A stretch of 64,000 nt of DNA from Maribacter sedimenticola (lineage in GTDB: Bacteria; Bacteroidota; Bacteroidia; Flavobacteriales; Flavobacteriaceae). Where the stretch lies: the NCBI RefSeq assembly GCF_900188415.1, contig NZ_FZNV01000001.1, positions 957,501 through 1,021,500 on the forward strand. The letters run 5' to 3'. Numbering within the stretch: position 1 is the stretch's first letter; the number at the start of each line of letters is the position of its first letter. The notes beneath the pieces are model-generated. The model searched no databases. It worked only from the letters and a program-made list of their open reading frames with translations, and was not told where the DNA came from. Made by a program: the position numbers and the translations under genes. Positions 24,987-29,803 of this stretch are shown in pieces.

Positions 24987-26294
24987 ATGTTTAACCACCT
25001 GTTTCAAAAGCAACTAATAGATCCCGCTAAAAGTCCCGTTTTTTATGGGTATGTTATTCTTGTAATAGGGACCATTGGTATTTATTGCAGTATACCCGGG
25101 CAGACTATTGGTGTTTCTGTTTTTACCGATCCGGTTAAAGATGCCTTGGGCCTATCTAGAAATCAGTTTAGTAATGCCTATATGATAGGTACCATTGTTA
25201 GCTCTTTGGTCATTGGTAGGGCAGGAGTATGGTTTGATGTTTATGGCGCGCGCTATGTAGCTTTTTTTGCGGCTCTTACATTAGGGTTGACCCTATTTTT
25301 ATGCTCATGGTCAGCGTCCATGAGTACGTATATTAAGGAGTTGTTATCCGTTGATACCTGGGTTGTGCCGTTTGTATTGATGACTATATTATTTTTTATG
25401 TTACGCTTTGCCGGTCAAGGTGTATTGACAATGGCATCCAGGAATGTAATAATGATCTGGTTCGATAAAAATAGGGGTAAAGTCAATTCTTTTAGTAGCG
25501 TTGCCCTTTCTTTTGGTTTTTCGTCTTCACCCTTATGGATCAATGGTTTGATCGAAGGTTATGGATGGTCGCAAACTTGGCAGTTTTTGGCCATAGGATT
25601 ATTGTTCTTTAGCATATTGATATTCCTTTTTTATAAAATATCACCAGAAAAACATGGTTTGCTGCCCGATGGTGTCAATCATTTAAATACGCAAGAGCAA
25701 CGGAAAACTACCGTACCCAAACAATTTACGTTAGAGGAAGCCAAAAAAGAGCGTGCCTTTTGGATGTACGGACTTACCTTGGCCTTTAATAGTTTTTTTA
25801 TCACGGGCCTTACTTTTCATATTGTTTCCATTTTTAACTTACAAGGATTTGTAAAGGAAGATGCCATTGCAATTTTCTTGCCCGGCTCTGTTGTAGCGGT
25901 AACCGTTTCTACTTTGTTTAACTTTTTAAGTGATTATTTACCCTTAAAATTATACCTCTATTTAATGTTATTGGGCGGTATTTTGGCCTCATTGGGGTTT
26001 TTATTGTTATCTACTCCGGTTGGTGTACCTATGCTAATTGCTGGCTTTGGCACACTTGGTGGTTTTTTTGCGGTATTGAATGCAGTAGCTTGGCCTCGTT
26101 TCTTTGGTAGGACACATTTAGGGAGTATAACAGGTAAAATTATGAGTTTTTTGATATTGGCAAGTGCATTGGCACCAAGCGTGTTCAGTTTTTGTCTTTC
26201 TACTTTTGGCTCTTACAAAATGGTCGGCTTTTTAGGATTGGCCTTTTTGCTTTTTTTGGCCATTGGCTCAATTAAGGCTAATAATCCTCAATAA
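24987..26294 (+). CDS. MFS transporter
   Basis: A 435-residue major facilitator protein with about 12 hydrophobic segments split by a central loop (around 225-250, charged and rich in Lys/Glu). The motif-A-like loop between helices 2 and 3 is GRAGVWFDVYGAR. The general look is that of the monocarboxylate/oxalate-formate antiporter branch, but the substrate is unknown. The start ATG at 24987 gives a short cytoplasmic N-terminus. The gap of 187 nt to the next gene suggests it is separate from the signalling operon. Confidence 0.83.
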   Translation: MFNHLFQKQLIDPAKSPVFYGYVILVIGTIGIYCSIPGQTIGVSVFTDPVKDALGLSRNQFSNAYMIGTIVSSLVIGRAGVWFDVYGARYVAFFAALTLGLTLFLCSWSASMSTYIKELLSVDTWVVPFVLMTILFFMLRFAGQGVLTMASRNVIMIWFDKNRGKVNSFSSVALSFGFSSSPLWINGLIEGYGWSQTWQFLAIGLLFFSILIFLFYKISPEKHGLLPDGVNHLNTQEQRKTTVPKQFTLEEAKKERAFWMYGLTLAFNSFFITGLTFHIVSIFNLQGFVKEDAIAIFLPGSVVAVTVSTLFNFLSDYLPLKLYLYLMLLGGILASLGFLLLSTPVGVPMLIAGFGTLGGFFAVLNAVAWPRFFGRTHLGSITGKIMSFLILASALAPSVFSFCLSTFGSYKMVGFLGLAFLLFLAIGSIKANNPQ

Positions 26295-26481: not shown

Positions 26482-26961
26482 ATGAATGAAATAATAGCTT
26501 TTTTACAGCAACTTTTTGACACATCTGATTGGCCGCCAAGATGGGTGTGTGGTAAATGGAGCGATTTTCATGGATGGCTGTACGTAGGTAGTGATGTAGC
26601 CATTTGGTTGGCTTACTTTATTATTCCTGTCGTAATAATTTGGTTTGTCCAAAAAAGACCCAAAGTGCCTTTTTTACCTGTTTTTTGGCTTTTTGCCGCT
26701 TTTATAATTTTATGTGGCGCCACTCATATTCTAGATGCAATAATCTTCTGGTGGCCAGCATATAGGTTAAGTGCTTTGGTACGGTTCTTAACGGCAATAA
26801 TAAGTTTTGCGACCGTATTTGCTTTGATCCGTGATTTGCCCAAATTGTTGGATGCGAAAGCACCAAATTCGGTAGATGATTTTGAAAATTCAAGATTAAG
26901 ATTGGAATTGGAAGAAAAGGATGCTGAAATATCTCAGTTGAAAAAACAACTGAAAATATAG
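26482..26961 (+). CDS. Stand-alone ethylene-receptor-like (ETR1) membrane sensor domain
   Basis: A 159-residue protein with three membrane helices that closely resemble the N-terminal ethylene-binding domain of plant ETR1 and cyanobacterial SynEtr1. Residues known to matter in ETR1 are all present at identical spacing with a +13 offset: D38 (D25), A44 (A31), Y45 (Y32), I48 (I35), I75 (I62), C78 (C65) and H82 (H69). C78 and H82 are the copper ligands, in the sequence LCGATH. The protein ends in a short coiled-coil-like tail (about 133-159) and has no kinase, PAS or GAF domain. The histidine kinase starts 9 nt downstream. Copper/ethylene sensing is inferred. Confidence 0.88.
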   Translation: MNEIIAFLQQLFDTSDWPPRWVCGKWSDFHGWLYVGSDVAIWLAYFIIPVVIIWFVQKRPKVPFLPVFWLFAAFIILCGATHILDAIIFWWPAYRLSALVRFLTAIISFATVFALIRDLPKLLDAKAPNSVDDFENSRLRLELEEKDAEISQLKKQLKI

Positions 26962-26970
26962 GTTTCGTTT

Positions 26971-28470
26971 ATGGCCGATCAAAAAGCAACGCCTTTATAT
27001 GTTAAGAATGTCATATTGTTTTCAATTGCGTTCTTAATTGCGGCAATAATTTACATTATAGATATTAATGTGCCTTCCAGCATTGCTATTGGGGCCATTT
27101 ATAGTTTGGTTATATTATACAGTTGGATACTTCCCACAAAAAACATATCTATTTATATAGGAATATTATGTACTATATTGATAATTCTGGGTATGACGGA
27201 AAAATCAACATCTTTGCCTCAAGGAAGTCTAGAAGGGGTCAATACATTTATAGCCATAATCGTAGTTTGGGTATGTGTTACCTTGGTATCTGCGGCAAAA
27301 AGTGGTTATGCAGGTTTGGAAAAAGTATTGTTGCTATTGGAGAAGAAGGTATTTGAGAGGACCAGGGCATTGTTAAAGAGCCAGAAGGAACTAGAGGTCA
27401 GTGAACGTATCTATAGCTCCTTATATGAAAACTCTAATGAGATGCTGGCTAGTATTAAAAACAATAATGAAGTAATTCGTTGTAACGAAACCCTTGCAAA
27501 TAAATTAGGGTACTCCAAAGATGAAATTTTAGGAAGGTCCATAGAGTTTTTGCACCATAAAGATAGTTTGGCCAACTTAAAGAATATCCTTGAGGGTTTT
27601 AGTAAAGGAAAAAGTATTAAAAATGCGGAGCTTAGGTTAAAAACAAATTTAGGTAAGCCCATAGATGTAATTTTAAATGTCTCTTCATCAAAGGAGAATG
27701 ATGGTGCCATAGCCTTTAAGCGATTTAGTTGGACCGATATTACTGAACTCAAGAGAATTGAAAATGAACGGATTGCCTATGCGGAAAAGCTTGAGGCTAA
27801 AAACAAGGAACTGGAACAGTTTGCATTCATAGCTTCACATGACCTACAGGAACCCTTACGTACGGTTACCAGTTTTTCTGAGCTACTATCAAATGAATAT
27901 AGGACTCAATTTGACGAGACAGGAAAGGATAGCTTAAATTTTATTTTGGAAGCTACCGGAAGAATGCAGAATTTGGTCAAGGCATTGTTGGATTATAGCA
28001 GAATTGGAAAAGATGCAGAAATGCAACAAGTTAATTTTATAGAAATAATAGAAGATCTAAAAAAAGACTTAAGTTTAAAAATAACGGAAACCAATACACT
28101 CATTGAATATGATGTTGTGGATGTTGCGGTAATGGGATATAAAGATGAGGTACGCCAACTTTTTTTAAATCTTATTTTGAATGCCATAAAGTTTGGTAAA
28201 AAAGAAGTGAGTCCTATTATAAAGATAAGCTCCTTTAAAAAAGAAAATGAAATACAGTTTTGTATAGCGGATAACGGTATTGGTATTTCCAAGGACCACC
28301 AACATAAAATTTTTAAAATATTCAAAAGATTGCACTCACGAAATGAATACGATGGTACGGGTATTGGCCTGGCCCATTGCCAAAAGATTATTGACTTGCA
28401 TGGAGGCAAAATTTGGGTAGAATCTTCCTTGGGACAAGGAAGTAAATTTTTCTTTACACTTAAAACATAA
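26971..28470 (+). CDS. Membrane sensor histidine kinase with PAS domain
   Basis: A 499-residue hybrid-free kinase. Residues 1-108 hold about four membrane helices. A coiled-coil linker (about 115-145) and a PAS domain (about 145-262) follow. The HisKA dimerisation domain carries the H-box FIASHDLQEPLRT with phospho-acceptor H290. The HATPase domain contains the N-box NLILNAIKFGKK and G-boxes DNGIGIS and GTGIGLAHCQKI. The short periplasmic loops leave little room for a ligand domain of its own. Position between the ETR1-like protein (9 nt) and the response regulator (5 nt) suggests the ETR1-like subunit supplies the input. Confidence 0.92.
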   Translation: MADQKATPLYVKNVILFSIAFLIAAIIYIIDINVPSSIAIGAIYSLVILYSWILPTKNISIYIGILCTILIILGMTEKSTSLPQGSLEGVNTFIAIIVVWVCVTLVSAAKSGYAGLEKVLLLLEKKVFERTRALLKSQKELEVSERIYSSLYENSNEMLASIKNNNEVIRCNETLANKLGYSKDEILGRSIEFLHHKDSLANLKNILEGFSKGKSIKNAELRLKTNLGKPIDVILNVSSSKENDGAIAFKRFSWTDITELKRIENERIAYAEKLEAKNKELEQFAFIASHDLQEPLRTVTSFSELLSNEYRTQFDETGKDSLNFILEATGRMQNLVKALLDYSRIGKDAEMQQVNFIEIIEDLKKDLSLKITETNTLIEYDVVDVAVMGYKDEVRQLFLNLILNAIKFGKKEVSPIIKISSFKKENEIQFCIADNGIGISKDHQHKIFKIFKRLHSRNEYDGTGIGLAHCQKIIDLHGGKIWVESSLGQGSKFFFTLKT

Positions 28471-28475
28471 CCATT

Positions 28476-28901
28476 ATGATACCTTTAAAAAAGAAACTAA
28501 GCTGCATTTTGCTGATAGATGATGACCATGCTACCAACTATATCCATAAACGCGTAATCGACAAGGCAAAGATTACCGAGAAAATTGTTGATTTGGAAAG
28601 TGGATATGATGCCTTAAAGTATTTGGAGCAAACGGATTTTGACGCATATCCAAGACCAGATATTATATTTCTTGACATTAACATGCCCGGCATGGATGGA
28701 TGGGAGTTTTTGGAAGGTTATGAGAAGTTAAGCCCTGAGCATAGAAGTAAGATAGTATTGGTAATGCTGACCACATCCTTAAACCCAGATGATAAAAATA
28801 AATCAGATTCCATTTCAACGATTGACGGATTTAAAAATAAACCGTTGACCTATCAAATTCTTCAGGATATTATAGATGAATACTTTGCCGATCATAAATA
28901 A
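28476..28901 (+). CDS. Single-domain response regulator (Rcp1-like)
   Basis: A 141-residue receiver domain without an output domain. The acidic pocket is LLIDDDHA (residues 13-19), the phospho-acceptor is D67 in FLDINMPGMDGW, the switch Thr is in MLTTS, and the conserved Lys is in KNKPLT. It resembles Rcp1-type regulators that pair with phytochrome-like and bacterial sensor kinases. The start lies 5 nt after the kinase stop, so it is the cognate partner. The downstream target is unknown: it may act by protein contact or as a phosphorelay carrier. Confidence 0.92.
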   Translation: MIPLKKKLSCILLIDDDHATNYIHKRVIDKAKITEKIVDLESGYDALKYLEQTDFDAYPRPDIIFLDINMPGMDGWEFLEGYEKLSPEHRSKIVLVMLTTSLNPDDKNKSDSISTIDGFKNKPLTYQILQDIIDEYFADHK

Positions 28902-29041: not shown

Positions 29042-29803
29042 ATGGATTTAAATTTGGCAGTATTGATAGATGGTGATAATATACCATCTGCATATGTAAA
29101 GGAAATGATGGAGGAAATTGCCAAATATGGTAATCCAACCATAAAAAGGATTTATGGGGATTGGACCAATCCGCGTTTGGGAAAATGGAAAAACGTGCTA
29201 CTTGAAAATGCTATTACCCCGATCCAGCAATATGGATATACCCAAGGTAAGAACGCAACGGATTCGGCCATGATTATAGATGCCATGGATATTTTGTATT
29301 CAGGTAAGGTCAATGGTTTTTGTATTGTTAGTAGTGATAGTGATTTTACCCGTTTGGCAACAAGGTTAAGAGAGGCCGGTATGCAGGTATTTGGTATTGG
29401 CGAGCGTAAAACGCCTAATCCGTTTATTGTTGCTTGTGACAAGTTTATTTATATAGAAATATTGAAGAGTAGAACAGAGGAAGAGTCTATAGATACCAAA
29501 AACGAAACCCCGGCTACTAAAAATACGGTAGATAAGATTACGCCAAAAGCACTACGTTTTATAGCAACCACCATAGATGATGTCGCTGACGATGATGGGT
29601 GGGCCTTTTTAGGTGATGTAGGTAGTTTGCTGCAAAAAAAGCAACCCAATTTTGACTCTAGAAACTATGGTTTTCAAAAGTTGACCCCATTGATCAACTC
29701 CATTCCTCATTTTGAAATTGAACGCAGGGAAGATTCTAAAGGACGTAAAAAACTTATTTACGTAAAGATTAAGGAAAAAAAAGCCCCTAAGTCTAAAAAA
29801 TAA
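29042..29803 (+). CDS. NYN-domain putative RNase with C-terminal LOTUS (OST-HTH) domain
   Basis: A 253-residue protein. Residues 1-150 form a NYN (PIN-like) nuclease domain with the acidic set D10, D12 (VLIDGDN), D74 (NATDSA), D99 and D101 (SSDSDF), which would bind metal. Residues about 170-250 form an OST-HTH/LOTUS domain (ALRFIATTIDDVADDDGWAF, then FDSRNYGFQKLTPLI), which binds RNA or G4 structures in other systems. The pair is known as LabA/DUF88-type proteins. RNA cleavage or RNA-linked regulation is inferred. It is monocistronic by spacing (140 nt before, 86 nt after). Confidence 0.87.
   Translation: MDLNLAVLIDGDNIPSAYVKEMMEEIAKYGNPTIKRIYGDWTNPRLGKWKNVLLENAITPIQQYGYTQGKNATDSAMIIDAMDILYSGKVNGFCIVSSDSDFTRLATRLREAGMQVFGIGERKTPNPFIVACDKFIYIEILKSRTEEESIDTKNETPATKNTVDKITPKALRFIATTIDDVADDDGWAFLGDVGSLLQKKQPNFDSRNYGFQKLTPLINSIPHFEIERREDSKGRKKLIYVKIKEKKAPKSKK

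Follow-up and report, generated by a model that had tools for sequence, protein, structure and literature searches.

A candidate split ethylene-type sensor in Bacteroidota: the binding domain and a four-helix-module histidine kinase are encoded by adjacent genes

The microbial ethylene receptors described in the papers cited here are single polypeptides in which the sensor is fused to the kinase. The nearest studied system is AzoEtr1 of Azospirillum brasilense, which has effects on biofilm and which carries, in one polypeptide of 525 residues with three membrane helices, a binding domain with seven key residues, a PAS domain and a histidine kinase; a single-domain regulator of 135 residues follows in a possible operon (PMC11819568). 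SynEtr1 of Synechocystis (slr1212) includes a kinase, and slr1213 is its regulator gene (PMC6682694). Outputs of bacterial ethylene receptors have been described as ranging 'from simple to complex' (PMC7700396), a range that could cover proteins made up of the domain alone. Searches of the open-licence literature on microbial ethylene receptors turned up no paper on such a domain encoded separately and paired with a kinase. Two systems with other sensors or contacts are relevant. LiaFSR, in which a small membrane protein is encoded together with a kinase and a regulator, shows that a three-component layout exists, although LiaF is an inhibitor and not an ethylene-receptor domain (PMC3543457). 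In rice, the ethylene receptor OsERS2 acts on the separate histidine kinase MHZ1/OsHK1, so an ethylene receptor can control a kinase in trans, although by another contact: OsERS2 touches the kinase through its GAF domain (PMC6981129), and the protein described below has no GAF domain.

Within the window, i.e., the whole stretch of 64,000 nucleotides analyzed here, three open reading frames on the + strand occupy positions 26482-28901, with gaps of 9 nt and then 5 nt:

26482..26961, + strand: stand-alone ethylene-binding-domain protein, 159 aa (PF25487 ETR1_N, E 6.7e-35; AlphaFold2 pLDDT 89.2)
26971..28470, + strand: histidine kinase, 499 aa (PAS_9 163-259, HisKA 282-346, HATPase_c 391-498)
28476..28901, + strand: single-domain response regulator, 141 aa (PF00072, E 1.3e-12)

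The gene upstream ends at 26294 and is read as an MFS-type transporter; the gene downstream starts at 29042 and is read as NYN type. The original prediction had described a separate ETR1-type gene directly before a PAS-containing kinase and then a regulator, and the ORF positions and Pfam matches agree with it. Like AzoEtr1, the locus combines a seven-residue binding domain, a PAS domain, a histidine kinase and a single-domain regulator; in contrast to it, the domain and the kinase are two genes, whose proteins have three and four membrane helices, respectively. The domain has the same key residues as SynEtr1 and plant ETR1; in those two receptors it is joined in one chain to a kinase and to cyanobacteriochrome or GAF regions. 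The two-component elements are complete: the kinase has an H-box (S289-H290) and an ATPase domain, and the regulator, by motif, has the phosphoacceptor D67 together with D15-D17, T99-T100 and K122. The regulator consists of a receiver domain only, and among solved structures it is matched best by 3ilh, a two-component regulator, and by regulators of the Rcp1 type. The genome holds a single PF25487 match and a single copy of the kinase membrane module.

PF25487 matches residues 30-124 of the 159-residue protein with 119.7 bits (cut-off 27). Outside the match there are a short N-terminal stretch and a coiled tail, just as the prediction of an ETR1-type domain with a short tail had it. In a comparison with Arabidopsis ETR1, we found ETR1 D25, A31, Y32, I35, P36, I62, C65 and H69 to be identical to D38, A44, Y45, I48, P49, I75, C78 and H82 at a constant offset of 13; the seven identities claimed earlier are thus correct, and that list had omitted the conserved P36. 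Shuffling of residues 31-125 in 200,000 trials gave at most five of these eight identities. Two sites within the domain are referred to below:

26593..26727, + strand: codons of D38, Y45, I48, P49, I75, C78 and H82, counterparts of ETR1 binding residues
26782..26784, + strand: codon of R101, counterpart of ETR1 K91 (R or K in 19/19 split proteins)

The first set corresponds to the seven ETR1 residues that we take to be needed for ethylene binding. Across the 19 split proteins defined below all seven are kept, except that I48 is kept in 18 of the 19. C65 is needed to coordinate copper in ETR1, modelling has D25 positioning H69 for copper, and a bond is predicted between D25 and K91, a helix 3 residue involved in output (PMC11819568); the K91 position is R or K also in 70 of the 71 other aligned rows. 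C23, a cysteine before helix 1, is present in 81/81 aligned rows, and a single cyanobacterial cysteine before helix 1 may serve the dimer-forming role of the plant cysteines (PMC6682694). The subfamily has a nearly invariant motif of its own, WP.RW.CG.W..FHGW before helix 1, with D85-A86 and P92.Y94 after helix 2. These surroundings are not known from ETR1.

The domain core is under strong purifying selection. Compared with the only other carrier in the genus, genome G012, pN is 0.067 for residues 1-126 at a near-saturated pS of 0.76, versus a pN of 0.377 for residues 127-159. For the whole protein, dN/dS is 0.066 relative to the protein of Gramella sp. AN32 (L027), a value given for this pair only because synonymous sites are saturated elsewhere. 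The tail, through which the sensor is supposed to reach the kinase, is the least conserved part:

26875..26952, + strand: C-terminal coiled tail, residues 132-157, helical in the AlphaFold2 model and fast evolving relative to G012

In the AlphaFold2 model of the sensor (pLDDT 89.2, pTM 0.68), three membrane helices (28-58, 65-88 and 94-124) are followed by this separate coil; the mean pLDDT of the helix blocks is 87-95 and hydropathy agrees with the three membrane helices. The model of the kinase N-terminus (165 residues; pLDDT 87.2, pTM 0.65) has helices at 9-33, 39-51 and 59-79 and one long helix at 86-164, joined by loops of 5 to 7 residues. This layout leaves no sizeable loop, so that the expected lack of room for a sensor in the kinase holds true of its membrane part. 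A search of the PDB (177,635 distinct sequences) with a profile of the domain gave no match with an E value of 1 or less, and Foldseek searches of the PDB with the sensor and kinase N-terminus models gave none at E 0.001 or better. The phmmer search of the PDB with the sensor returned weak tail matches to geminin coiled coils only (best E 1.1), which we discarded.

The membrane part of the kinase is a module of its own:

26971..27318, + strand: kinase residues 1-116, the four-helix membrane module, common to 19/19 split systems and without a Pfam family

The window kinase module matched no Pfam family, and across 21 module rows four families each match one row, weakly. A profile built from 10 split kinases recovers the other nine at E 1e-26 or better. 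In a phylum sample of 296 genomes, seven have a module match, the best apart from the window at E 2e-17, and none of these, the window aside, has an ethylene domain within the fetched stretches. The module of the split kinases is thus a distinct subfamily of a wider anchor; the occurrence of distant forms in kinases with no ethylene domain in the fetched stretch also means that the module may be just an anchor. Of the frames compared, 149 carry the domain and 51 the module, many being repeats of one locus; none is a natural fusion of the two. Ten of the 19 split kinases are short (372-389 aa). No PAS domain was found in the three short kinases scanned (L029, L030, L157), so that in these the ethylene domain is the only recognized sensor. 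A receiver gene follows the kinase in 14/19 systems and is missing in four (L028, L029, L062, L164); L034, where the contig ends, is counted apart.

To what extent the domain and the kinase go together was addressed by a census of PF25487-type domains. A contig scan using a four-sequence alignment gave 210 relatives. Among the 80 best of these, which were carried forward, eight are stand-alone domains with a kinase directly next (L027-L032, L034, L062) and four are short without a kinase next (L037, L102, and the broken-looking fused copies L041 and L086). The other 68 lie in frames of at least 373 residues, 65 of them with the kinase core motif. These fused Bacteroidota kinases, e.g., in Spirosoma and Mucilaginibacter, belong to the same subfamily (WPPRW.CG.W..FHGW), and many have next to them a gene of 130-145 aa, a regulator where read; they differ from the split systems in being one polypeptide and in that none has the four-helix module. 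The second sample was the order of genome G817, probably Cytophagales, as the 41 residues before the stop in G817 are those of L086 from Fibrella rubiginis. PF25487 is above cut-off in 85 of 390 genomes of this order, with 15 matches in frames of 155-244 aa plus two fragments in G1019. Twelve of the 15 short frames are followed by a kinase, three of them repeating L029, L030 and L032; the other three are G905 (the L102 protein, Hymenobacter) and G1201 (L166), both without a kinase, and G925, near a contig end.

In total there are 22 distinct intact stand-alone domains, 19 paired with a kinase (two from the window and its genus mate G012, eight from the contig scan and nine from the order of G817) and three unpaired (L037, L102/G905 and L166). 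By their labels, the paired systems include Flavobacteriaceae, Marivirgaceae, Cyclobacteriaceae, Reichenbachiellaceae and Crocinitomicaceae. Because these 19 were selected as paired, the count alone is circular. The independent statement is that a clade defined by sequence holds all 19 paired domains and none of the three unpaired ones, a statement that covers, from the contig scan, the best 80 of the 210 relatives. In 19/19 members of this clade, the membrane-protein gene is conserved beside a kinase, and that kinase, the next gene, has the same four-helix module. The spacing from sensor to kinase is -4 to +12 nt in the 18/19 with a placed kinase start (L028 excepted), and relative to the sensor the kinase is in a different frame in 14/19, in the same frame behind a stop in 4/19 and unsettled in 1/19. 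Because the neighbourhood on either side changes from genus to genus, the adjacency goes beyond synteny, and the same pair in 19 bacterial genomes of several families therefore looks like a real two-piece receptor, in support of the split two-component reading first proposed. Both genome samples are draws from larger groups, and the frequencies apply to the samples.

The three unpaired proteins each have a long tail. L037 (6001-6573), from an unclassified Bacteroidota assembly, encodes a 190-aa ethylene-binding domain without an adjoining kinase. The 222-aa protein of L102 (5890-6558) and L128, from Hymenobacter daecheongensis and G905, has a signal-like N-terminus and again no adjoining kinase. 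L166 (2165-2794, reverse strand; G1201) encodes a divergent 209-aa ETR1_N protein that has phenylalanine in place of Y45 and in which the key cysteine is followed by serine, and it too has no adjoining kinase.

In a tree of the domain (96 rows, 126 columns, tail removed, the broken L086 excluded), the 19 split domains form one branch with support of 100/85, recovered in 200/200 bootstrap trees and with other forms on both sides; in a tree with ten split rows the nearest fused relatives are L035 and L036. With a single split clade nested among fused receptors, the split form thus derives from fused receptors, once among those sampled. The kinase cores present a different picture. A quick tree of low resolution was made from 81 rows (10 split, 70 fused and one other), leaving out L082, L090, L095 and L117, which have no recognized core, and frames under 300 aa. 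Here the split kinase cores (n=10) are not one clade: five changes are needed, at least two of them forced by starred branches, and L034 and L062 lie apart from the remaining split kinases. That the cores are scattered and that module and domain stay together suggests that the catalytic part may have been replaced while the sensor-module pair persisted.

Closer to the window the operon is rare. PF25487 is above cut-off in 2/36 genomes of the genus, six of the 36 being less than 90% complete, and the full-length kinase is in the same two; two further genomes match the kinase query in the PAS or kinase part only. G012 has the whole operon in the same place, with identities of 82, 65 and 63%. The downstream NYN-type gene is present in 35/36 genomes, and 30 such loci were compared: two belong to the window and G012. 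In 15 the MFS gene directly precedes the NYN-type gene, and in 12 there is no operon but an OmpA or NIPSNAP gene lies within 1.5 kb. In the remaining locus, L187 (937-1350; G025, 64% complete), an open regulator gene, 61% identical to that of the window, stands alone at the operon spot between NIPSNAP and NYN-type genes, and kinase and sensor are absent there. The operon is absent from 34/36 genus genomes, some of them incomplete, and is therefore dispensable; the pattern fits an old operon that may have been lost in most species, with gains possible. A PF25487 match in G031 was set aside, as it scored 21.6 bits, below cut-off, in a 230-residue membrane protein read as unrelated. Outside the genus, the one named carrier in Flavobacteriaceae is Gramella sp. 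AN32 (L027), and a protein search of 397 family genomes returned the window's own protein only, plus a 37% match with five internal stops. The original prediction had made its reading depend on the kinase staying beside the ETR1-like gene in relatives: this is borne out in 19/19 clade members, and within Flavobacteriaceae itself the evidence for it is thin.

We consider it rather probable that the locus encodes a three-component sensor whose intramembrane kinase is controlled by an ethylene-type domain in a subunit of its own. In such a sensor, three helices of the 159-residue protein would make up an ethylene site of the copper type, probably as a dimer, in the inner membrane, next to the four-helix module of the kinase; binding of ligand would shift the third helix and the coiled tail, the kinase signalling helix would change in response and autophosphorylation with it, and the regulator would accept the phosphate and, because it has no DNA-binding part, work through protein contact. 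The three genes, the retained ligand residues, the one clade of split domains and its pairing with this membrane module are observed; we infer the physical contact between sensor and kinase, the dimer and the direction of signalling, and ethylene and Cu(I) would be ligand and cofactor by analogy with the family.

Other readings were weighed against this one. The stand-alone domain could sense copper (or silver), CO, O2 or a different alkene in place of ethylene, with the rest as proposed: C78 and H82, by homology the metal ligands, are kept in 19/19, and the near-invariant surroundings are the subfamily's own, not known from ETR1. However, the remaining ETR1-site residues D38, Y45, I48, P49 and I75 are also kept. 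In addition, AzoEtr1, which has the same seven residues as SynEtr1 and the plant receptors, binds ethylene (PMC11819568), and the binding domain of SynEtr1 is functional (PMC6682694). A ligand other than ethylene is in our judgment unlikely, albeit to be reckoned with. Retention of the site likewise speaks against a kinase that is a self-sufficient intramembrane or PAS sensor, with the ethylene-domain protein as a ligand-free accessory brake or scaffold similar to LiaF, since the ligand-site residues would then not need keeping; moreover, 10/19 kinases are short, and a PAS domain is lacking in all three short ones that were scanned. The window kinase does have its own four membrane helices and a PAS domain, and the accessory membrane protein of LiaFSR is a specific inhibitor (PMC3543457), and overall we view this arrangement as improbable. 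Least credible of all is that the split is an artefact or a decayed fused receptor, caused by a sequencing error or a stop codon that is perhaps read through. In the window the two genes do share a frame, separated by one TAG and nine more bases. Against this reading, the second gene is in another frame in 14/19 systems, the kinase brings a membrane module of its own, purifying selection acts on the domain core, and a broken fused copy looks different (L011/L086, with an in-frame TGA).

The three-component sensor can also be framed for the whole Bacteroidota clade: a separable ethylene-receptor subunit would dock on an undescribed four-helix kinase module and switch the kinase via membrane-helix contacts, the catalytic part having been exchanged and the sensor-module pair kept. 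The chances of this wider version we see as evenly poised. With sensor and kinase encoded by separate genes, the effect of the sensor on the kinase can be tested by adding or removing one subunit. The natural 159-residue protein, with its confident model, is also an attractive target for the copper/ethylene site; neither the profile nor the fold search found a solved structure of the domain in the PDB. The locus raises the question of what use such bacteria make of an ethylene-type sensor.

Two further loci were observed in the course of the analysis. In L034 (6528-8114), the kinase of the split system is spread over two reading frames close to where a metagenome contig ends, from either decay or an assembly error. 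L116 (3402-5509; G528) encodes a kinase in which a larger membrane region precedes the four-helix module, and behind it comes a similar single-domain regulator; there is no ethylene domain in the fetched stretch, and G528 has a fused ethylene-domain kinase elsewhere (L021).
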